The notes under the pieces are model-generated. The model saw nothing but the letters and a program-made list of their open reading frames with translations. It was not told the DNA's origin and made no database searches. Shown piece by piece: positions 2,351 through 49,800 of a stretch of 64,000 nucleotides of DNA. The translations under genes were made by a program, and so were the position numbers. This stretch comes from Histomonas meleagridis. Its lineage: Eukaryota; Parabasalia; Tritrichomonadida; Dientamoebidae. The stretch's first letter is position 1. Every line of letters begins with the position of its first letter. Location: positions 124,001 through 188,000 of the forward strand of contig WSYJ01000178.1 in the NCBI GenBank assembly GCA_020186115.1, given 5' to 3'.

Positions 2351-3143
2351 TCATTTGTGGCTAAGAAGTAATTTAACAATTTCACTATTCCCGTTTTGGT
2401 CTGCAAACATAAGTGCTGTTTTATTTAATTTGAATAATTTCCAAAAAACATCTAAAAACATCAAATTTTCAATATAAATATTAAATAAAATTAGTAAATA
2501 GATTTAGAATTAATATCGATTCCTTTTTGTTTAAGAAGTAATTTAACTATTTCTATGTTACCATTTTTAGATACATAAATAAGTGCTGTTTGAAACAATT
2601 CAAATAATTTCCTAATATTATCTATAAACAATAAATTATTAAAATAAATATTTAATAAAACAAATAAATATCTTTTGCATTAACATCAATTCCTTTTTTT
2701 TTAAGAATTATCTTCACTATTTCATTATAACCTTTTTCAGATGCCCAAATAAGTGCTGTTTTATTTAACTAGAACAACTTCCAAGTATTAATATTAAACA
2801 CCAGATCTTTAAAATATAAATTATATAAAACAAATAAACACTTTTAGCGTTAACATCTATTCCTTTTTGCCTAAGAAGTAATTTAACTATTTCTACTTTA
2901 CCACTCCAAGATGATTTCATAAGTGGTGTCATAAATATTTTAAATAATTTCCAAATATTATACTGAAATATTCCAAAGCTATTATAATAAATTCTAAACA
3001 ATACAAATATATATCTTTTGTATTAATATCAATTCCTTCTTGTTCAAGAAGTATTTTAACTATTTCTATATGCTCTCTTAAAATTGCCCATGTAAGTGCT
3101 GTATAAAATAATTTAAATAATTTCCAAACATTTTATTGAAACA
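2351..3143 (-). repeat. array A: five isolated ankyrin modules at 170-bp period, downstream of DUF3447 ORF
   Basis: Reading the minus strand past the end of the DUF3447 ORF, five ankyrin-repeat modules begin (ACA codon of TAL/TPL) at 3102, 2929, 2759, 2589 and 2419. The spacing is 173, 170, 170 and 170 bp. Modules 1-4 are exactly 29 codons, from TAL or TPL to N-[AST]-K (for example TALIYVSKNGN and then KGIDINSK). The fifth is shorter and ends with its own TGA at 2351 (KLLLSHK), like a capping repeat. Spacers of 83-86 nt contain stops. They begin with an RTWTATTTG-like element and carry TTTGGAAATTATTTAAA, with its GG exactly 23 nt before the next ACA codon. All modules are free of stops and frameshifts. 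I see no GT-AG introns. Whether the modules are exons, cassettes or relics is open. Confidence 0.8.
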
Positions 3144-4328
3144 TCAAACTTTTAAAACAAATTTTAAATGAAATAAATATATATCTTTAGCATTAATATC
3201 AACTCCTTCTTGTTCAAGAATATATTTAACAAGTTCTAAATTTCCTGATTTTGAAGAAAAACATAAAATATCCTTAGGAATTTGGTTATTTTGAAGAAAA
3301 TCCTTAACAAGGTATAGGTTTCCAGATCTTGCTGATTCATTAATAATATATTCATTGATTTTAACAGCTTCTTTTTCCAAAAACCCTAAGATTTCATAAT
3401 TTCCACTATTAATACAATTATAAGCTAAATAATTAAAGTTTTCTTCCGATGTTTCAGTTTTATTTTCATAAATATATTTAAAAACATCATTTCGATGAAA
3501 TTCAATTGCAGTTTTATATGCATCTTCAAATGATAAATGATTTTGTTCACATAAATGAATTATCTCTAAGTTTCCACCTGCAACAGCATATTTACCTGTG
3601 TTTTCTACATTTGCATTATTCATAAGCAAATATTTAAAACATTTTACAGCAGAAAAAAATGCTGCATAATCAATTAATGTAACATTTTCATGATTAACAT
3701 ATGAACATCTTTCATAAAGAGATGGTTCAATTATTTGATTAAAATCAAAATCGCTTTGTGATGATATTTCTTGAAGTTTTTCAATTTCATCATTTCGAAT
3801 TATTTGTGCAAGTTCATTTGGATTATGCCCCTCTTTAACATATTTTTTATGGAGTTCCCAATTATTCCTTGAAAGTTCTTCATAATTTTCAATAAATTTT
3901 CTACTGAATGGATCATTCCTATAAATTTCATGGTTTTCTTCTTTTGTTTTGTAATGTGCAAAATATTTTGATGATATATTTTTGACAACATTAACATCGA
4001 TTAAATTTTGTTCAATCATTTTCTCAATTATATAATATGATTCATGTGATTTAAAATTAGAAATGTATTTTATAAAAAATTCGATATTTTGGGTGTTACT
4101 TTTGGTTATTTCTTTTTCTTTAGTTTGTAATGTTTTTAAATATCTTAAGTAAATATCAGTTGTGTTCTTTTGTGAGCGGAAAGCAAAGAAAATTAAATTG
4201 CTTATGATCAAATTAAATGAATATGGATTTTTCGAATCGTATAATTTTATTGTTTTTTGAACATAAGAATCAAGTTTTTCTTCAGTTAATTTGAAAATTA
4301 TTCTTTCTAATGTAAGAAGTGCCTTCAA
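3144..4328 (-). CDS. DUF3447/ankyrin-family protein, locus A (no ATG at family start)
   Basis: This is a 394-codon ORF of the large trichomonad DUF3447 (ankyrin-related) family, whose function is unknown. It aligns end to end with the ORFs at 7348 and 23772. Shared blocks are the N-terminal LERIIFKL segment, NNWELHKKYVKEG at about residue 155, IRNDEIEKLQEISSQ, LIDYAAFFSAVKCFKYLL and AGGNLEIIHLCEQN. The C-terminal third is ankyrin-like and ends in ILEQEGVDINAKDI, followed by a short tail and a stop. The position matching the ATG of the homologue at 7348 is TTG (plus-strand CAA 4326-4328). There is no in-frame ATG upstream before a TGA, and the next internal ATG would remove about 110 residues. 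The gene therefore has a mutated start, starts from TTG, or has an unseen upstream exon. Array A follows directly in the same orientation. Confidence 0.75.
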   Translation of the reverse strand: MKALLTLERIIFKLTEEKLDSYVQKTIKLYDSKNPYSFNLIISNLIFFAFRSQKNTTDIYLRYLKTLQTKEKEITKSNTQNIEFFIKYISNFKSHESYYIIEKMIEQNLIDVNVVKNISSKYFAHYKTKEENHEIYRNDPFSRKFIENYEELSRNNWELHKKYVKEGHNPNELAQIIRNDEIEKLQEISSQSDFDFNQIIEPSLYERCSYVNHENVTLIDYAAFFSAVKCFKYLLMNNANVENTGKYAVAGGNLEIIHLCEQNHLSFEDAYKTAIEFHRNDVFKYIYENKTETSEENFNYLAYNCINSGNYEILGFLEKEAVKINEYIINESARSGNLYLVKDFLQNNQIPKDILCFSSKSGNLELVKYILEQEGVDINAKDIYLFHLKFVLKV

Positions 4329-7347: not shown

Positions 7348-8550
7348 ATGGAAGCACAAATATCTCTTGAACATATCATTTTTAATTTAAAGGAAGAAGA
7401 TCTTGAGATATCAATTCAACAGACAATGAAATTATATGAATCAAATTTATATTCATTTAACTTTATCATCAGTAAATTAGTTTTTTATGCATTTTATTCT
7501 CAAGGTAATACTTACAATGTTTATTTAGATTACTTGGAATCACTTCAAAATCTTGAATCAGAAATTAATAAAAATGGTCCTAAGCTTATTGATATTTTTA
7601 GTTTAATTTTATTAAAAACAAAAGACCATTTACAAGAATCATATTATCTAATAGAAAGAATGATTGAACGAAATTTAATTGATAAAAATATTACAAGAAA
7701 CATTGATTTTAAATATTTTGCACATTATAAAACAGAAAAAGAAAATAAAATTGTACTTTATAAGGGAGGTATGGAAGATTATTTTCATAAAAATTATAAA
7801 AAACTTACAAGGAATAATTTTAAACTTCATAAAAAATATGTTAAAGAAGGCGTTAATCCGAATGAAATTATCAAAATAATTCGAAATGATGAAATAAAAA
7901 AACTTCAAGAAATATCATCACAAGCAAATTTTGATTTTAATCAAAAAATTAACCCATCAATTTATGAAAGATATTCTTTTATTAACAGACCTAATATTTC
8001 ATTAATTGATTATACAGCATTTTTTGGATCTATTAAATGCTTTAAATATTTACTTATGAATGGAGCAGTTGCAGAAGATACGGGTAAATATGCAATTGCA
8101 GGTGGAAATATTGAGATTATTCATTTATGTGAACAAAATCATTCATCATTTGATAAAGCATATGAAACAGCAATTGAATTTCATCGAAATAATATCTTTT
8201 ATTATCTTTATGATAATAAAATTAAAAAATCCTTTAATGTAGAAAATTTAGTAAAAATATGTATTTTTTATGACAACTATGAAATATTTTCATTTTTGCA
8301 AGAAAAAGAAGGTATAAAATTTGATGATGATATTATCAATAAAATAGCAACACATGGTAACTTGTTTATTCTTAAATATTTCCTCGAAAATTATCCAGTG
8401 CCAAAAAATATATTAATATCTTCAGCAGAATCAGAAAATATTGAACTTGTTAAATATCTTCTAGAACAAAAAGGAATAGATATTAATTATAGTGATATAT
8501 GCTTTGATGATTTAAAATATATTATGATAATTTTATCTTTCTTTAATTAA
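7348..8550 (+). CDS. DUF3447/ankyrin-family protein, locus B
   Basis: The 400-residue ORF has a clear ATG (MEAQISLEHIIFNLKEEDLE). It belongs to the same family as the ORFs at 3144-4328 and 23772-25019, with NNFKLHKKYVKEGVNPNE, IRNDEIKKLQEISSQ, LIDYTAFFGSIKCFKYLL and AGGNIEIIHLCEQN. The last third is ankyrin-like and closes with LVKYLLEQKGIDIN, after which a short hydrophobic tail (DICFDDLKYIM) leads to TAA. The same module end (x-[IV]-Y-L-x-x-L-[KI]-F) follows the isolated ankyrin blocks downstream. This suggests the ORF is only the first coding segment of a longer gene ending at 10541. Ankyrin domains bind proteins, but the targets of this family are unknown. It is divergent from kinesin-9, with 760 bp between them. 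Confidence 0.85.
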   Translation: MEAQISLEHIIFNLKEEDLEISIQQTMKLYESNLYSFNFIISKLVFYAFYSQGNTYNVYLDYLESLQNLESEINKNGPKLIDIFSLILLKTKDHLQESYYLIERMIERNLIDKNITRNIDFKYFAHYKTEKENKIVLYKGGMEDYFHKNYKKLTRNNFKLHKKYVKEGVNPNEIIKIIRNDEIKKLQEISSQANFDFNQKINPSIYERYSFINRPNISLIDYTAFFGSIKCFKYLLMNGAVAEDTGKYAIAGGNIEIIHLCEQNHSSFDKAYETAIEFHRNNIFYYLYDNKIKKSFNVENLVKICIFYDNYEIFSFLQEKEGIKFDDDIINKIATHGNLFILKYFLENYPVPKNILISSAESENIELVKYLLEQKGIDINYSDICFDDLKYIMIILSFFN

Positions 8551-10541
8551 TTCTATATTTCTTTTTTTGGTCTAGAATTTCTTTTAATATTCTACAATTT
8601 CATTTAATAATTTGTAATTTATTTTAATTACTTAAAATTCATTTTAACAATTTGATATTGGTTTTAAGTATTTTATATCCATTTTAATAATTTTGTATTT
8701 CTTTTAAAATTTTACAATTCCTTTTAATATTTTAGGATTTGTTTTAAATATTATATATTCGTTTTGATAATATAATATTTGCTTTAATTATTTAATGATT
8801 TTTTTAGTTGTTTGAAGTTTGTTTTAACAATTTTATTTTTGTTTCAATAATTTATTGTTTATTTTGATGATTTAAAATTCATTTTTGTGTTTTCAAATTT
8901 ATTTTAATAGTTTAGAACAGTACTTCATAAAGCAATTGAAAACAATAATGTTGAATTCGTTAAATTACTTTTAGAACATAAAGGAATTAATGTTAATGCA
9001 ATTTATATTGATTTATATGATTTGAAATTCATATAAATAATTTGATATCTATTTGACGAACTTTATATATCTTTCATTAATTTAAAATTTCTTTTTAAAT
9101 CCTAAAATTTCTTTTGATAATCTGTGGTTTATTTTTGTGAATGATAATTTGTTTGAAAAATTTGTAATTTGTTTTGATGATTCGAAATTTGTTTTTATCA
9201 ATTACAGTTTATTTGAGCAATTTTATATTTATTTATGTAGCTTGAAATTTGTTTTTATCAATTGCAGTTTATTTGGGAAATTTTATATTTGTAAATCTAG
9301 TTTGGAATTTATTTTAACAACTTTATATTTGTTTTTATAATATGATATTTGTTTTTGTAATTTATCATTTGTTTTAATAATTTGATATTTATTTTAATCA
9401 TTTGAAATTCTTTTTAATTAATTTCTGTCTGTTTGAATAATTTACAGTTTATTTTGTTGATTTGATATTCATTTTAAAAATTTAGAATTTATTTTAATGA
9501 TTCGGAACAGCACTTCATTTTGCAATCAGAAATAATAATATCGAATTTGTTAAATTGCTTTTAGAGCATAAGGGGGTTGACATCAATGCAAAATATATTG
9601 ATTTATATAATTTGAAATTTATTTAAATAATTTTACATTTATTTAAAGAATTTATCGTTTATATTATTAATTTTATATTAATTTTAATCATTTAAAATTT
9701 ATTTTAATTATTTTGTGTTTGTTTAATGAATTTGATGTTTGTCTTCTTGTTTTGATATTTATTTTAATAACATATTATTTGTTATAATAATTTAGAATTA
9801 GTTTTAATTGTTTAACATTTGTTTCAATAATTTCATATTTATTTTAATGTTTCAAAATTTGTTTCAATAATTTCGTGTTTGTTTTGGTTGTTTTATATTT
9901 TTTTCAACAATTTATCATTTGCTTTAATTATTTGAGATTTATTTTAACTATTTCGTGTCCATTTTAATTGTATAAAATTTAATTTAATAATTTGGAACAG
10001 CTCTTCATTTGGCAGTTAATGACAATAATATAGAATTGGTTAAATTGCTATTAGAAAAAGGCGCTGATGTTGTTGCAGTATATGTTTTATTATATAGTAT
10101 GAAATCCTTTTTAATATTTTAATTTTTGCTTTGCGAATATAAATTTTGTTTAAATAATTTGAAATTTCTTTTTATTGTTTGAAATTTCTTTTAATATTTT
10201 GATATTTGCTTTTATAGTTTTATATATGTTTTAAAAATTTAGAATTCGTTTTTTTGATATAATGTTCGTTTCGTTGATTTAAAATTCGTTTCATTATTTT
10301 AAAATTGATTTTCATTATTTAATTTTTATTTTAATGTTTTATTGTTTGTTTTAATAAGTTAAAATTTGTTTTTATAACTTAAAGGTTCTTTTGATAATCT
10401 GATGTTTTTTTAAAAAAATTGAAGTATCAAAATATTATTTAGAAGTTATTCACATTGTTTTTAACAGCAATTCAAATTGCAACAGCAAAAGGAAACAAAG
10501 AAATGATAAGTCTACTTACGAAAAAGACACGGGAACTTTAA
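8551..10541 (+). repeat. array B: four isolated ankyrin modules in long spacers of degenerate 20-bp repeats
   Basis: Modules begin (ACA codon) at 8917, 9507, 9997 and 10464. The first three read TVLHKAIENNN, TALHFAIRNNN and TALHLAVNDNN, followed by the usual KLLLE and [ND]VNA-type end. The first three modules are preceded by an in-frame stop and two codons (TTT AGA, TTC GGA, TTT GGA), giving FGTALH, the ankyrin consensus. The fourth (TAIQIATAKGNKEMISLL) ends in a proper TAA at 10541. Spacers of about 380-500 bp consist of a degenerate 20-21-bp tandem repeat of the form ATTTRTTTTAATAATTTNAN; nine consecutive units can be followed around 8615-8800. The modules carry no stops although the spacers are full of them, which suggests the modules are under coding constraint. 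No canonical splice sites are seen. Confidence 0.75.
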
Positions 10542-19020: not shown

Positions 19021-19093
19021 TGGTCCCGCAGGGACTTGAACCCTAGACCTTTGCGTTATCAGCACAACGCTCTACCGACTGAGCTACGAGACC
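19021..19093 (-). tRNA. tRNA-Ile (anticodon GAT), copy 1
   Basis: This 73-nt tRNA is on the minus strand. The acceptor stem is GGTCTCG paired with CGGGACC (one G-U), followed by discriminator A. The D arm GCTC/GAGC and the T arm around GGTTCAAGTCC are present. The anticodon stem TTGTG/CGCAA surrounds loop CTGATAA, giving anticodon GAT, which reads ATC/ATT (Ile). A T7 tract follows the 3' end on its own strand, as expected for a Pol III terminator. CCA is not encoded. It is identical over all 73 nt to the plus-strand copy at 23607-23679. The scaffold resembles eukaryotic cytosolic tRNA-Ile, where A34 would be usual. Confidence 0.95.
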
Positions 19094-23606: not shown

Positions 23607-23679
23607 GGTCTCGTAGCTCAGTCGGTAGAGCGTTGTGCTGATAACGCAAAGGTCTAGGGTTCAAGTCCCTGCGGGACCA
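23607..23679 (+). tRNA. tRNA-Ile (anticodon GAT), copy 2
   Basis: This is a perfect 73-nt copy of the tRNA at 19021-19093, in the opposite orientation, with anticodon GAT at 23640-23642 in the loop CTGATAA. The A73 discriminator is followed at once by T8 (23680-23687), a Pol III terminator. The 5' flanks of the two copies differ while the 3' flanks are both T-runs, so the duplicated unit is little more than the tRNA itself. It lies only 92 bp upstream of the DUF3447 ORF of locus C. Confidence 0.95.
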
Positions 23680-23771: not shown

Positions 23772-25019
23772 ATGAGTGGTTCAAATGAAAAAAATTGTTT
23801 GCAGATCCTTTATACACTCGAAAACATAATATTCGGGTTAAATAATGAAAATATTGAAACACAAACTGAACAAACAATAAATTTATTTAATTTAAATAAT
23901 TATCCATATTCTTTCAACCAAGTAATATGTAATTTGATTTTTTCATTGTTCTGCTCTCGAATAGGGGATGGAGATATTTATTTATGGTATTTAAAATCTA
24001 TACAAAGAAAGGAAGAAGAAATAAAAACAAAAATAGATCCCAAAATAATCGAAATTTTTTATAAATTTATAACGCAAAATCAGAAACAAGAAACATTATA
24101 TTTTATAGAGAAGATGATAAAATATAATTTAATTGATTCTAGTTTAACTCAAAACTTCACCACAAAATATTTTGCGCATTATAAATCATTAGATAAAGCT
24201 AAAATTACTTATTCTTCAGAGTATTTTTCTTATAAATTTGTTGATAATTTAGAAGAACTTTCCAAAAACGATTGGGAACTTCATAAGAAATATATCGAAG
24301 AAGGAGTTAATACATCAGAAATCGCGAAAATAATTCGCAATGATGAAATCGAAAAACTTCAAGAAATATCATCACAAGAAAAATTTAATTTTGATCAAAG
24401 CATTGAACCATCACTTTATGAAATATGTTCATTTATTAATCAACAAAATGTTTCATTAATTGATTATGCAGCATTTTTTGGATCAATTAAATGTTTCAAA
24501 TATTTATTACATAATAATGCAACTATGATAACAGCTAAATATGCGATTGCTGGTGGAAATCTTGAAATTATAAAACTTTGTTTACCAAAAACAAAATCAA
24601 TTAAAGATGCTTTTAAATCTTCAATAAGATTTCATCAAAATGATGTGTTTCATTATCTTTATGAAAATGAAATTGAGAAATTAAAGGAAAGTAATTCGGA
24701 TTTACATGTAGATTATCAAATAAGGAAAAAATTTTCTGACAATGATGTAATACTTATTTACTTAGGACTTCAATGTGTTAAAAGTAATAATTATAAAATT
24801 CTTACATTTTTACAAGAAGAAGGAATGAAAATCACTAGTAAAGTCATTAATAAAGCAGCAAAAATTGGTAACTTATTCCTTGTTAAATATTTCATTGAAA
24901 AGGATCAAGTTCCAGTGGATATTTTACCTTATGCTGTACAATCGGAAAATATTGAACTTATAAAATATATTCTTGATAAAAAAGAAATAGATGTTAATTA
25001 TAACGAGTTTTTTCCCTGA
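23772..25019 (+). CDS. DUF3447/ankyrin-family protein, locus C
   Basis: This 415-residue ORF is of the same family as loci A and B. It has the N-terminal LENIIFGLNNENIE block, NDWELHKKYIEEGVN, IRNDEIEKLQEISSQEKF, LIDYAAFFGSIKCFKYLL and AGGNLEIIKLC. A 20-residue insertion (around KLKESNSDLHVDYQ) distinguishes it from A and B. The ankyrin-like end ENIELIKYILDKKEIDVN is followed by a short tail and TGA. The ATG at 23772 (MSGSNEKN) is chosen over the in-frame TTG at 23757. The first isolated module downstream begins 51 bp after the stop. Function is unknown; protein binding through ankyrin repeats is the family expectation. Confidence 0.85.
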   Translation: MSGSNEKNCLQILYTLENIIFGLNNENIETQTEQTINLFNLNNYPYSFNQVICNLIFSLFCSRIGDGDIYLWYLKSIQRKEEEIKTKIDPKIIEIFYKFITQNQKQETLYFIEKMIKYNLIDSSLTQNFTTKYFAHYKSLDKAKITYSSEYFSYKFVDNLEELSKNDWELHKKYIEEGVNTSEIAKIIRNDEIEKLQEISSQEKFNFDQSIEPSLYEICSFINQQNVSLIDYAAFFGSIKCFKYLLHNNATMITAKYAIAGGNLEIIKLCLPKTKSIKDAFKSSIRFHQNDVFHYLYENEIEKLKESNSDLHVDYQIRKKFSDNDVILIYLGLQCVKSNNYKILTFLQEEGMKITSKVINKAAKIGNLFLVKYFIEKDQVPVDILPYAVQSENIELIKYILDKKEIDVNYNEFFP

Positions 25020-26469
25020 GTTTTTATGTGTTTTAAATAAATTATTGGAAATTTTTTTAAAGTACTTTGTCCTGCAATTCTTTATGCATCTGAAGCTGGC
25101 AATATAGAAATTGTTAAGCTTTTATTAAATATGCCTGATATTGATATTAATCTTAAAGGAGTTTATTTGTTTTGTTTAAAGTTTGTTTAGTTTAATTAAT
25201 GTTTTAGTTTTGGAATTGAAGTTTTTAATGTTTTATTAAAGTTCCATTAATAGCAGCTGTAATGAAAGAGAATATTGAAATGGTTAAGTTGTTTCTTGAA
25301 AGAAAAGATTTAAAAATTAACATTAAATACGTTAATATCAAAGTTATAGAGTTTAAAAATAATATTTAAAATATATATAAATCATTTAAAACACCAATAA
25401 TTTTTGCAGCTCAACATGGCAATATTGAAATTCTAGAATTACTTCTGAAATACAAAGATGTTGACATTAATATTAAAGGTGTAATTAAATTTTTTTTGAC
25501 GATTAATTCAAATATTTTCAATATCAAAATAATTTTTAATGTTTTTTCATTTTATTTAGAACTGCATTTATAGAAGCCTGTAAAAATGGTCATCTTGAAG
25601 TAGTTGAATTACTTCTTAAACAAAATGGAATTGATTTGAATTGTACAGATATTTATTTTTATTAATGAATGTATTTTACAACACCTTCGTGTTTCAAAAT
25701 AATATTTGGAATTCATTTAATTTTTTTATTAATGCATTAATGTATGCTTCAGAAAAAGGTCACATAGAAGTAGTTAAATTACTTCTTAAACAAAATAAAT
25801 TTGATATTAATGCTAAAGATATTTGTATATTTTATTTAATATTTGTTTAAATATTATCTGATTTCAAAATAATATTTGGAATTTATTTTAAATTTTTATG
25901 ACAGCATTCATGCATGCATGTGTAAGTGGTCGTACAAAAATAGTTCAAATCTTTCTTAAAATAAAAGATCTTGATATCAATAGTAAAAACGTATTTTAAA
26001 ATTATTTAATATTTGGTTTGATAATTTCGTATTTCAAAATGAAATTTGGGAATTAATCAAATGATTTGTGACAGCATTTATGCTTGTCAATTTGGAAGAA
26101 AAGATATAGTTAAAATTCTCCTTGAATTAAATGTAATTGATATCAACGATAAAAATGATATTAAATAATATTTAAAATTTTCTTGAATAATTTATTGTTT
26201 ATTATTATAATTTGGAGATCAATAAATTTATTAGAATCAGCTCTTTTATTGGCAACTTTCGTCAAGAAAGTCGATATCGTTCAATTCCTTCTTAAACAAA
26301 ATGGTATTGATAAAAATATTGAAAATATTTAATTATTTTATTTGATATTTGATTTAAAATTATCATATTTCATAATATAATTTGGGATTTATTAAAAATT
26401 TCTGAAACGCCACTTAGTATAGCAAAAAAACTTAAACACCAAAAGCTAATTAATTTATTAACTAAATAA
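25020..26469 (+). repeat. array C: nine isolated ankyrin modules at 170-bp period
   Basis: Modules start at 25071, 25241, 25391, 25561, 25731, 25901, 26071, 26237 and 26407. The intervals are 170, 150, 170, 170, 170, 170, 166 and 170 bp. Seven modules are exactly 29 codons (for example TPIIFAAQHGNIEILELLL and NALMYASEKGHIEVVKLLL). The seventh (26071) has lost 4 nt at its 5' edge. The ninth (TPLSIAKKLKHQKLINLL) ends in TAA at 26469 like a capping repeat. Spacers of about 83 nt contain stops, start near a RTWTATTTG-like element and mostly contain TTTGG with GG 23 nt before the next module. The 150-bp interval lacks that element. Module sequences are strongly diverged while the period is kept. 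A (TA)n tract follows at about 26488-26505. Confidence 0.8.
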
Positions 26470-46892: not shown

Positions 46893-49800
46893 TCATTTGA
46901 CTTTCGGCCGATGTGTAGGCCTTGGAGGCATTGCAATAGGTATAAAGAAATCCGAACTTGATGAGTAATCATAATCTTCGGTAAATTTATTGTTTACCTT
47001 TGGTGACATATTTTCTATATCTGATGCATCGCTATAATAATATGAATCGTAATCAGAAAACGAAATGTTCACCAAACGCCTTAAGAACGGGCTTTTTCTT
47101 TTGTTGAGTATTATTGACTGATTCTTAGGCGGCGTCTTCAGTGCGTTTTTGTGAAATGGCTTTTGCAATGCTTCAGAACTTGTTGATGAATATCCATCAG
47201 AAGGTGAAACAGAGCCATTTCCACTTTCGCGAATGTATTTATCATTTTGGTATTGCTCTTTTCGCGTATTTTTATGCTTTGTTCGAATGGGCGTTTCATA
47301 TGTTTCGACGTTTTTGTTGTTGCCGAATATGGAGTCAAAGACTTGCTGCGACTTTGGAGAGAAATTACTTTTGTTTTGCCCCGAAGTTTTGATTTTGCTT
47401 TCGTTTGATTTTATAGGACGCGTTTTCTGATTTGATTTAATTTCGTTTTCACGCGTTTTGTTATCTTTTGCACTTATTGAATGTGTTTTCTTCGTTTTGT
47501 TCTGCATTGGCGCGTCATCTATAGTATCGCTGTCTGTTTCTTCATTTACAGTTTTACTCTTTTCGAGTGTTTTATTTATTTTATCATTTGTTTTATGCGT
47601 ATTACTTTTTGGTGTTCCATTTTTCGCTTTTGCACTTATTGAATGCGTTTTCTTCGTTTTGTTCTGCATTGGCATTTCATCTATAGTATCGCTGTCTGTT
47701 TCTTCATTTACAATTTTACTCTTTTCGAGCGTTTTATTTATTTTATCATTTGTTTTATGTGTATTACCTTTTGATGTTTCATTTTTCGCTTTTATGTTTA
47801 TCGAATGTGTTTTCATCTTTTGATTTTGTTTTGTTATTTCGTTACTTGTACTACTGTCATTGCTTTCATTTGAACTTTTTCGATTTGCTTTATTTAAATT
47901 TTTTGCATCAGTTTTTATTTCATTTTTATTATTTTCTGTTGTTTTACTTATTTCTTTTGTTATATCTTTTTGTTTTACTGAATGTGTTTTATTCTTTTGG
48001 TTTTGTTTTGGCGATTCGCTTACATTAATATTTTCTTTTTCCTTTTTGTTCTTTTCCAATGCTTTGTTTATTTCGTTAAATGCATCTTTGTTACTTATTG
48101 AATGTGTTGCATCCTTTTTACTTTTTGGTGTTTCTTGTTTTGTATTACTTTCATCATCTGTACTTTTGTTTATTTCCATTGAGCTCTTTTTATGCGTTTT
48201 ATCATTTTCTTTATCTGTATTTTCACCTTTGTTCTTTTCGGGTGTTTTCGTTTTACTATTGTTTCTCTTTTTGGTTCTTATTGAGCGTGTGCGCTTCTTT
48301 TTACTTTTTGGTGTTTCATTATCAGTTTCGTTTTTATTCTTTTCTGGAGTTTGCATTGTTTCATTTTTTGCATCTTTTGATCTCATTGAATGTGTTCTCT
48401 TCTTTTTACTTTTTGGAGTTTCATTACTTTTATCGTCAATTTTGTTGTTTGCATTTTCGGATAATTTAGAATTTTTATTATTTTTTTCTTTTGATCTTAT
48501 TGAGTTTGTTCTCTTCTTTTGACTTTTCTGCGTTTCATTATTTATTTTAATTTTATCATATTCAGGAGTTTTAATTATTTCGTTATTCGCATCTTTTGAT
48601 CTTATTGAGTGTGTTCTCTTCTTTTTACTTTTTGGCGTTTCATTATCCATTTCGTTTTTATTCTTTTCTGGAGTTTTATTTATTTTATTTGATTTGCCTT
48701 TTGATCTTATTGAGTGCGTTCTCTTCTTTTTACTTTTTGGCGTTTCATTATTTATTTTACTTTTATCAGTTATTGTTTCATCATTTGAACTCTCAGACAA
48801 CACAAAAATGTCATTGGTATTCTCTTTGCTTCTTATTGAATGTGTTCTCTTCTTTTTATTTGATTTTAGTGTTTTTTCTTCTTCATTACTTTCTGATAGC
48901 TCAAAGTTATTATCAATTTTCTCTTTTGATTTTGTTGAATTTGTTTTCTTCTTTTTACTTTTCTTTGGAGTTTCTTTTTCTTCTTTATCTTTTGTAGGCG
49001 TTTGAATCATTTGATTTTCATCATTTATTTGTTCCATTTTATTTTTTGATTTTTTAATTTTTTCTGAATTTTTTCGTTTTGTTTTCTTATTTGATTTATT
49101 ATCTTCTGCTTCACTTTTTTTATTTTGCGGCGTTTGGAATTTTTTCTTTTTCTTTTCATTTTCATCATGCAATTGAAAATCTTCGTTTGTATTTATTAAC
49201 TTTGAGTTATCACTCTGTGTCAAATTTTTGAAAATTTTACTTTTCTTTGAAGAATTTGTTAAATATGTTAACAATGAATCGTCGTCATTATCATTTGATT
49301 GTATCATGAATATATCAGATTCATCTTTTTCTTCATTATTTTCATATAATTTATTCTTTATAGCTATAGCATCTGGATGAAATGTGAATGGATATTTATC
49401 ATAATCTTCATAATTAAATACATAAAAAGGTTGAATATAATCATCGTTAAGTTCGATTTGAAATTTCGAAACTAATTCATTAAGTTGATCTAAATCCATT
49501 TTATTATTATTAACAAGATTTTGTAAGTCATTAATCGGAAAACTTATTATATCTTTTTCTTTATAATTCGAAATTTCATTTAAAAATTCGGAAATTTTTT
49601 CATCGTTTTCGGGATTTGAATCATCAAAATGTATAATATCAAGTTTCGGCTCACGATTAAATAAATTTCGTAAAGAATCATAAATTTCATTTCCACATTT
49701 ATTATTTGATATATCGAATAACATTATAGTGCTCGAAGAATTTACAGCGTTAATAATTTTTATTGTATTTTTCCCTAAAAAATTTTCATTAATTCCTTTA

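Follow-up and report, generated by a model that had tools for sequence, protein, structure and literature searches.

We analyzed a 64,000-nucleotide stretch of the Histomonas meleagridis genome (the window; positions 124001-188000 of contig C112 in a 43.28-Mb, 121-contig assembly), in which an array of ankyrin modules, here called locus C, follows an open frame for the DUF3447 domain. The spacers between these modules carry segments of exactly 17 nt, placed at the boundaries marked in D^x^x^G^x of the ankyrin hairpin. These segments are probably removed or skipped, and removed from the RNA as ultrashort introns without GT-AG borders. That the triplets standing between the segments are translated codons, and the 17-mers untranslated, we regard as very likely from the sequence patterns described below; the larger share of that confidence, though not all of it, carries over to removal from RNA.

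RESULTS

Segments of 17 nt interrupt the ankyrin hairpin

The typical spacer of the array is 83 nt long and consists of five single codons with four AT-rich segments of exactly 17 nt between them, written gat-[17]-xxx-[17]-xxx-[17]-gga-[17]-xxx. The consensus sequences of segments 1 to 4 are ATTTATTTGTTTTATTT, ATTTATTTTAATAATTT, ATTTCAAAATAATATTT, and AATTATTTAAATTATTT, respectively, with the pattern ATTT-N9-ATTT and, in the fourth, AATT...ATTT. When the segments are skipped, the DNA reads INAK-D-x-x-G-x-TAL, an ankyrin hairpin; such hairpins follow the rule D-x-x-G-x. The 29 codons of a module and five hairpin codons together make a repeat of 34 residues, and the period of the array is 34 × 3 + 4 × 17 = 170. 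An insert-free DUF3447 paralogue in the same genome (L076) has contiguous hairpins (NVKDKNGFTPLHWACKKGN..) and a repeat that is likewise 34 residues long.

Across the spacers of 182 high-scoring units, hypervariable triplets on a 20-nt beat stand out from conserved columns. Triplet 1 encodes D or N in 140 of 161 units and triplet 4 encodes glycine in 141 of 161, while triplets 2, 3, and 5 are hypervariable; the variable triplets are presumably ankyrin binding-surface positions, those that are randomized in designed ankyrin proteins. Genome-wide, hypervariable codons were also observed at module codons 5 and 8 besides hairpin codons 2, 3, and 5, in units that are otherwise conserved. We take all five to be ankyrin surface positions, and their variability looks like diversifying change.

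A preliminary description of this DNA had proposed strongly diverged modules that at most positions share only the ankyrin consensus. This was not borne out: the spacers are related in sequence, a 141-nt repeat that includes the spacer being 62-70% identical to the locus C reference copy, and across the family (the same 182 units) spacer columns are about as conserved as module columns.

The array of locus C

The nine modules of locus C start at 25071, 25241, 25391, 25561, 25731, 25901, 26071, 26237, and 26407 and follow one another at exactly the steps first described (170, 150, 170, 170, 170, 170, 166, and 170 bp). With module 7 counted as 83 nt and the others as 87, seven of the eight spacers are 83 nt and one is 63 nt; module 7 is 4 nt too short, which accounts for the 166-bp step, whereas in the 150-bp step a codon and a 17-nt segment are missing. 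The break of frame in module 7 is either a mutation, which would make locus C a young pseudogene, or an assembly error. The features, all on the plus strand, are as follows.

23772..25019, +, DUF3447 open frame (PF11929, 39.3 bits, cut-off 26.9); the straight frame ends at a TGA within the first, divergent segment
25002..25070, +, first hairpin, 69 nt, three segments of 17 nt and six codons; divergent, boundaries uncertain
25071..25157, +, ankyrin module 1, 29 codons, PAILYASEAGNIEIVKLLLNMPDIDINLK
25158..25240, +, hairpin 1, 83 nt, fixed 20-nt spacing gga/aaa/aat/gaa/aaa (G K N E K); segments 25161-25177, 25181-25197, 25201-25217, and 25221-25237, the last placed elsewhere by the free parser
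25241..25327, +, ankyrin module 2
25328..25390, +, hairpin 2, 63 nt, three segments and four codons (Y R K K)
25391..25477, +, ankyrin module 3
25478..25560, +, hairpin 3, G D S N R and four segments
25561..25647, +, ankyrin module 4
25648..25730, +, hairpin 4, D N R G I; segments 25651-25667, 25671-25687, 25691-25707, and 25711-25727
25731..25817, +, ankyrin module 5
25818..25900, +, hairpin 5, D N L G M; segments 25821-25837, 25841-25857, 25861-25877, and 25881-25897
25901..25987, +, ankyrin module 6
25988..26070, +, hairpin 6, N N R G V and four segments
26071..26153, +, ankyrin module 7, 83 nt, 4 nt under the others, frame broken
26154..26236, +, hairpin 7, N K I G E and four segments
26237..26323, +, ankyrin module 8
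26324..26406, +, hairpin 8, N D H G E and four segments
26407..26469, +, terminal ankyrin module, TPLSIAKKLKHQKLINLLTK, then a TAA stop

The isolated triplets avoid stop codons

In 161 distinct units of 170 bp, no stop occurs at any of the five triplet positions, where 34.5 would be expected from column frequencies. The same holds for all 246 hairpins of 83 nt, with stops in 0 of 1230 triplets and 50.3 expected. When these hairpins are split by divergence, the classes have expectations of 33.4, 9.1, 6.7, and 1.1 stops, and none is observed in any of them; in the 47 most diverged hairpins, whose segments depart from the consensus at 13-30 of 68 sites, stops number 0 in 235 triplets against 7.8 expected. 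Because the units share common descent, the counts should not be read as independent events. Sliding the triplets of the diverged class by -8 to +11 nt gave stops at every shift except 0 and +3, the latter of which reads the segment start. Boundaries slid by -1 or +1 were rejected, as stop avoidance at all three triplet letters fits slide 0 only. Genome-wide searches in which one triplet was left free (the first 100 of 1,173 places, the first 100 of 900, and all 26, some of them overlapping loci already used) returned 0/100, 0/100, and 0/26 stops, compared to 4.7, 3.2, and 4.3 expected from column composition.

Spacer length changes in codons and 17-nt steps

Spacer length had been proposed to be constrained in itself, and the wider sample supports this. 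Among 317 distinct consecutive module pairs, 303 have gaps of up to 110 nt, and 293 of these 303 gaps equal 17k+3c with c from 4 to 6 (47 of 57 when the 83-nt gaps are excluded). The ten misfits measure 43, 57, 57, 70, 76, 78, 84, 84, 84, and 85 nt. The period also recurs beyond locus C: in the first 30 loci and the window, spacing is 170 in 166 of 243 distinct units, with 153 (9 units), 173 (7), 167 (5), 171 (4), and 150 (3) among the others.

Departures from 83 nt are themselves made of whole parts. Sixteen of the 22 gaps of 66 nt have lost exactly segment 1 and kept both flanking codons, one 35-nt gap retains six codons and one segment, and three gaps of 103 nt carry one extra codon and one extra segment. 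Fourteen gaps exceed 110 nt; only the three of another array in the window, locus B, equal 20n+3, and two of 253 nt are 83+87+83, that is, a missed module. The gains of a codon and a segment (20 nt) in the 103-nt gaps and in locus B suggest that exchange occurs at the segments; the units may also be cassettes exchanged or aligned by length, the second option of the preliminary description. At locus L010, a 57-nt hairpin is open straight through (DKIYFNHYLFQNNIWKLFE); two 57-nt gaps violate the 17k+3c rule.

The segments of the 246 hairpins differ from consensus by 1588 substitutions and, in the diverged hairpins, vary approximately like third codon positions (0.271 versus 0.230; four-fold sites, 0.185); gap length stays on the rule although the segments diverge. 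Length differences among the 246 modules that precede an 83-nt gap amount to whole codons, with one exception; 2 of the 239 full-length ones among them contain a stop, and in diverged modules conservation is highest at second codon positions (0.091 versus 0.225 and 0.230). Stops and indels do not build up freely as in a neutral tandem satellite, with 0 stops in 1230 triplets and 293 of 303 gaps on the rule.

Skipping the segments opens ankyrin frames

Modules from the window and from the loci collected elsewhere in the genome were joined into non-overlapping chains of at least three, across gaps of up to 110 nt only, giving 46 chains with 347 modules and 301 hairpins. A chain was counted as free of defects if its module lengths were divisible by 3, its modules lacked stops, its gaps equaled 17k+3c, and the triplets of its 83-nt gaps lacked stops. 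With the segments skipped, 31 of 46 chains have no defect; unskipped, 0 of 46 are open in the frame of the first module, which agrees with the earlier statement that the array cannot be read straight through. Removal of the segments therefore restores an open frame, as expected of spliceosomal introns.

At L075, 52 skips yield an open frame of 770 residues, and the unskipped sequence has 58 stops. Of six stretches parsed whole, L072, L073, L075, and L077 were parsed with segments, although the straight frame of L077 is likewise open and slightly longer (471 versus 447 residues). The parse did not extend the main frame of L074, though the module search found 13 modules there, and in L076 a single segment of negative score was placed on one strand, the insert-free paralogue lying on the other. 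Two parsers were discarded: one allowing phase 1 and 2 joins introduced noisy additional joins where loci B and C are diverged, and a phase-0 parser with a segment profile broke off early both in a third array, locus A, and in the initial part of locus C, and overran the TAA in its second part. Segment placement was finally taken by spacing from module ends.

The joined products match ankyrin models, and the DUF3447 frames of loci A, B, and C exceed the PF11929 cut-off. For a 230-residue stretch of L075, PF00023 (Ank) scores 211 bits at the boundaries given above, 207, 201, 195, and 184 bits when these are slid by -1, +1, +2, and -2, respectively, and 188 bits with the hairpin nearly dropped. 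With and without hairpins, PF00023 scores are 138 versus 109 for locus A and 133 versus 114 for locus C; the Ank_5 score drops too once hairpin codons are omitted.

Extent in the genome and in relatives

A 37-mer of segment 3, gga, and segment 4, allowing at most 3 mismatches, occurs at 3,590 places in the assembly and the reversed pattern at 0; if most units hold four segments, the genome would contain well over ten thousand of them. A two-unit query gave at least 117 matches (best 40 of 1,399 candidates scored), the long ones 71-80% identical, the window aside. For the DUF3447 family, 150 of 1,695 first-look candidates were scored and all matched.

A metagenome protein, P0049, reads NAKNKIYFNDFIFQNNIWGFLKLFKTALMF, like the straight translation of a three-segment hairpin. 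It is only 31-57% identical to the genome in 106 matches (93 of 9,529 candidates scored) and 51% identical at the best-scoring place, and it therefore probably derives from another species. Judging from this single protein, a related species probably has the segments as well. Relatives were found neither in a viral contig collection, searched with the DNA pattern and P0049, nor in a genome contig collection, searched with P0049, and the DUF3447 frame of locus C had no match in a phage collection.

Of two NCBI entries for H. meleagridis, P0112 ends ..GIDINAQNI, where the segments would begin, and P0087 ends otherwise. From P0112 and the ends of straight frames, gene models of this very large DUF3447 family may lack the ankyrin part. 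Searches of the open-access literature, mostly at the level of titles and abstracts, brought up no description of such segments in Histomonas or other parabasalids. A published TMT proteome of H. meleagridis includes an ankyrin unigene (PMC10063853). Introns of H. meleagridis are given as scarce, 573-638 with at most one per gene, in the accessible part of a published account (PMC8529796).

Other loci of the window

Segment triples in 20-nt phase occur in the window at three loci only, A, B, and C (34, versus 1 in reversed controls). The two further loci are as follows.

2503..4019, -, locus A, DUF3447 frame (PF11929, 40.7 bits), then the same modules
7348..10440, +, locus B, DUF3447 frame (PF11929, 35.2 bits)

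The hairpins of locus A measure 83, 86, 83, and 83 nt and read D K D G Y, D R W N G M, S N G G K, and D N I G Q. Those of locus B are far longer, 423, 503, and 403 nt, each equal to 20n+3, and consist of runs of about 20-26 single codons, one per 20 nt (8494-10440); they would encode long polar loops between ankyrin repeats. In four tracts whose limits were set by hand and whose phase came from the segment profile alone, 0 of 80 triplets are stops; the runner-up phase has 0, 1, 3, and 1 stops across the tracts.

The remaining frames of at least 150 residues are uninterrupted, up to 2180 residues, and GC content is 18-37% per 2 kb, consistent with the value of about 28% given for H. meleagridis (PMC8529796). 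Two tRNA-Ile genes (anticodon gat) lie at 19021-19093 and 23607-23679, the latter just upstream of locus C. At 47465-48768, tandem coding repeats of 162, 105, and 219 bp belong to a frame of 1452 residues in which KSKKKRTHSIRSK-like motifs are abundant.

DISCUSSION

A route by which the segments might be removed

Each unit would code for one 34-residue ankyrin repeat, and selection would keep the joined frame open. The segments would be cut from the RNA one by one, leaving exons of three nucleotides between them. A codon and a segment together measure 20 nt, so that each such block gained or lost would alter the loop by exactly one residue, and recombination between segments would change loops by whole residues, which may be an advantage or a mere side effect. 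Strict length combined with a fairly free inner sequence suggests a machinery that measures 17 nt. More tentatively, and with slightly less than even confidence, we propose a dedicated excision or decoding system that reads the fixed 17-nt length and the terminal TTT independently of GT-AG and joins single codons at thousands of sites; such a system may diversify ankyrin binding loops residue by residue. The genome encodes a spliceosome (Prp8 PROCN, 687.5 bits, E = 5.5e-206), along with a U6-like match containing ACAGAGA that scores 43.7 bits, just below the cut-off of 44. If the joined frames are made, messages would be trimmed to single codons thousands of times. The 17-nt pieces would then be near the shortest known introns and without intron signals, implying either a novel way of processing RNA or a spliceosome that departs widely from known rules.

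Several observations weigh against this interpretation. Fifteen of the 46 chains, locus C included, have one or two defects each, and badly broken modules may be missed because the profile that located modules must align over most of its length. Segment borders are GT-AG in 0 of 984 cases, GC-AG in 0, and AT-AC in 1; the Trichomonas vaginalis 3' motif, ACTAACACACAG, occurs at chance level (3 versus 2); and no stable RNA fold was found (z of 1.09, -1.20, and -0.18). An ordinary spliceosome would have difficulty with 3-nt exons between 17-nt introns, of which there would be up to 52 in a gene. Framework codon changes mostly alter the amino acid (460 versus 130, 208 versus 76, and 313 versus 138 silent in the divergence classes), so that by this crude measure purifying selection on the modules looks weak. 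Domain scores are not uniform either: in L075, Ank_2 is higher with the hairpin nearly dropped (261.5 versus 207.7) and Ank_4 marginally better at slide -1 (207.5 versus 206.8). Slides -1 and 0 are separated by the stop test alone, Pfam not settling -1. Reading all 66-nt gaps as xx[17]x[17]x[17]x gives 1 stop in 110 codons, and the free parser applied to all gaps up to 110 nt gives 6 in 1802. Finally, the whole case is built on DNA sequence.

Alternative explanations

Should the ribosome bypass each 17 nt, as in phage T4 gene 60 and the mitochondria of Magnusiomyces, the mRNA would retain the segments and the same codons would be translated. The ruler-like combination of fixed length and free inner sequence would suit this (1588 substitutions, with only 10 of 303 gaps off 17k+3c), as would the position of all parsed segments between codons and the precedent of one mitochondrial genome in which inserts at 81 positions are bypassed (PMC5009743, accessible text). 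Take-off and landing codons match in only 14 of 984 cases, compared to 14.4 expected by chance, although that text indicates that known bypass cases may also lack a perfect match. Up to 52 skips per frame would demand near-perfect efficiency at each, a cost per message that favors RNA excision, and the named precedents are phage or mitochondrial, whereas contig C112 is 1.39 Mb long. We consider bypassing unlikely.

We also give little credence, slightly less again, to an old coding array that was invaded by 17-nt repeats, is no longer expressed, and owes its equal period to homogenization. The units lie in tandem and resemble one another, 15 of 46 chains are defective, module 7 of locus C is frameshifted, third positions of the most similar units are not more variable than first positions (0.059 versus 0.084), and framework changes mostly alter the amino acid in all divergence classes, all as such a dying repeat would have it. 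It fits poorly with the lack of stops in 1230 triplets, the most diverged hairpins included, and with modules that change length in codon steps, contain a stop in 2 of 239 cases, and are most conserved at second positions.

The earlier suggestion of a fixed-length intron in each spacer was right in that something must be removed, whereas the 83 nt prove to be four 17-nt segments and not one intron. A single intron of 71-83 nt per repeat would likewise restore the frame in one removal, as 170 = 99 + 71, and genes with one intron per repeat exist in animals. Triplets 2 and 3 would then be intronic, yet they contain 0 stops in 161 units with 19.1 expected; this and the glycine at triplet 4 in 141 of 161 are features that one intron would not explain. 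Ank and Ank_5 scores also fall without the hairpin codons, though Ank_2 rises for L075, and in locus B the codons recur every 20 nt through 400-500 nt, none of 80 triplets being a stop. On balance, this explanation is improbable.

Removal at the DNA level in an expressed copy, in the manner of ciliate internal eliminated sequences with the assembly representing the unprocessed form, would suit exact, short, AT-rich segments between codons but is highly improbable, given that no segment-free array copy occurred among the fetched loci (no systematic search was made), although three-segment hairpins exist, and that we know of no nuclear dualism in parabasalids.

Two further ideas were rejected. 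A nucleosome-like 170-bp period does not account for the gaps of locus B (423, 503, and 403 nt), which keep the 20-nt beat instead. A ribosome that read on through the segments and shifted frame once per repeat would meet an in-frame TAA in the segment 3 consensus, and no chain is open unskipped in the frame of its first module.

Comparison with known systems

Excision of the segments from RNA, our preferred explanation, has its closest parallel in ultrashort spliceosomal introns, for which accessible portions of two reports give 15-16 bp in Blepharisma, 15 nt in Stentor, and 23 nt for the shortest in Trichomonas (PMC9942806, PMC12316389). The segments resemble these in their near-fixed, tiny length and in the frame restored by removal. 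They differ in the absence of GT-AG and in their single-codon exons, in being known here from genomic DNA, and, in what was examined, in their confinement to one spot of one repeat family.

The internal eliminated sequences of ciliates, which in Paramecium peak at 26-28 bp (PMC9942806, same portion), are likewise short intragenic pieces that must go for the coding sequence to form, but the one assembly available here gives no sign of a processed genome. As with the mitochondrial inserts of Magnusiomyces capitatus and the gap of T4 gene 60, described in the part of PMC5009743 cited above, the segments would be untranslated blocks, many per genome. Unlike those, they lie on a megabase contig, are fixed at 17 nt, have a chance-level match of take-off and landing codons, and number up to 52 per gene. 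The proteins themselves would be of a familiar kind: parabasalid DUF3447/ankyrin proteins also have a DUF3447 frame followed by ankyrin repeats, as does the insert-free paralogue L076, and the difference lies in the hairpin codons, which are interrupted here.
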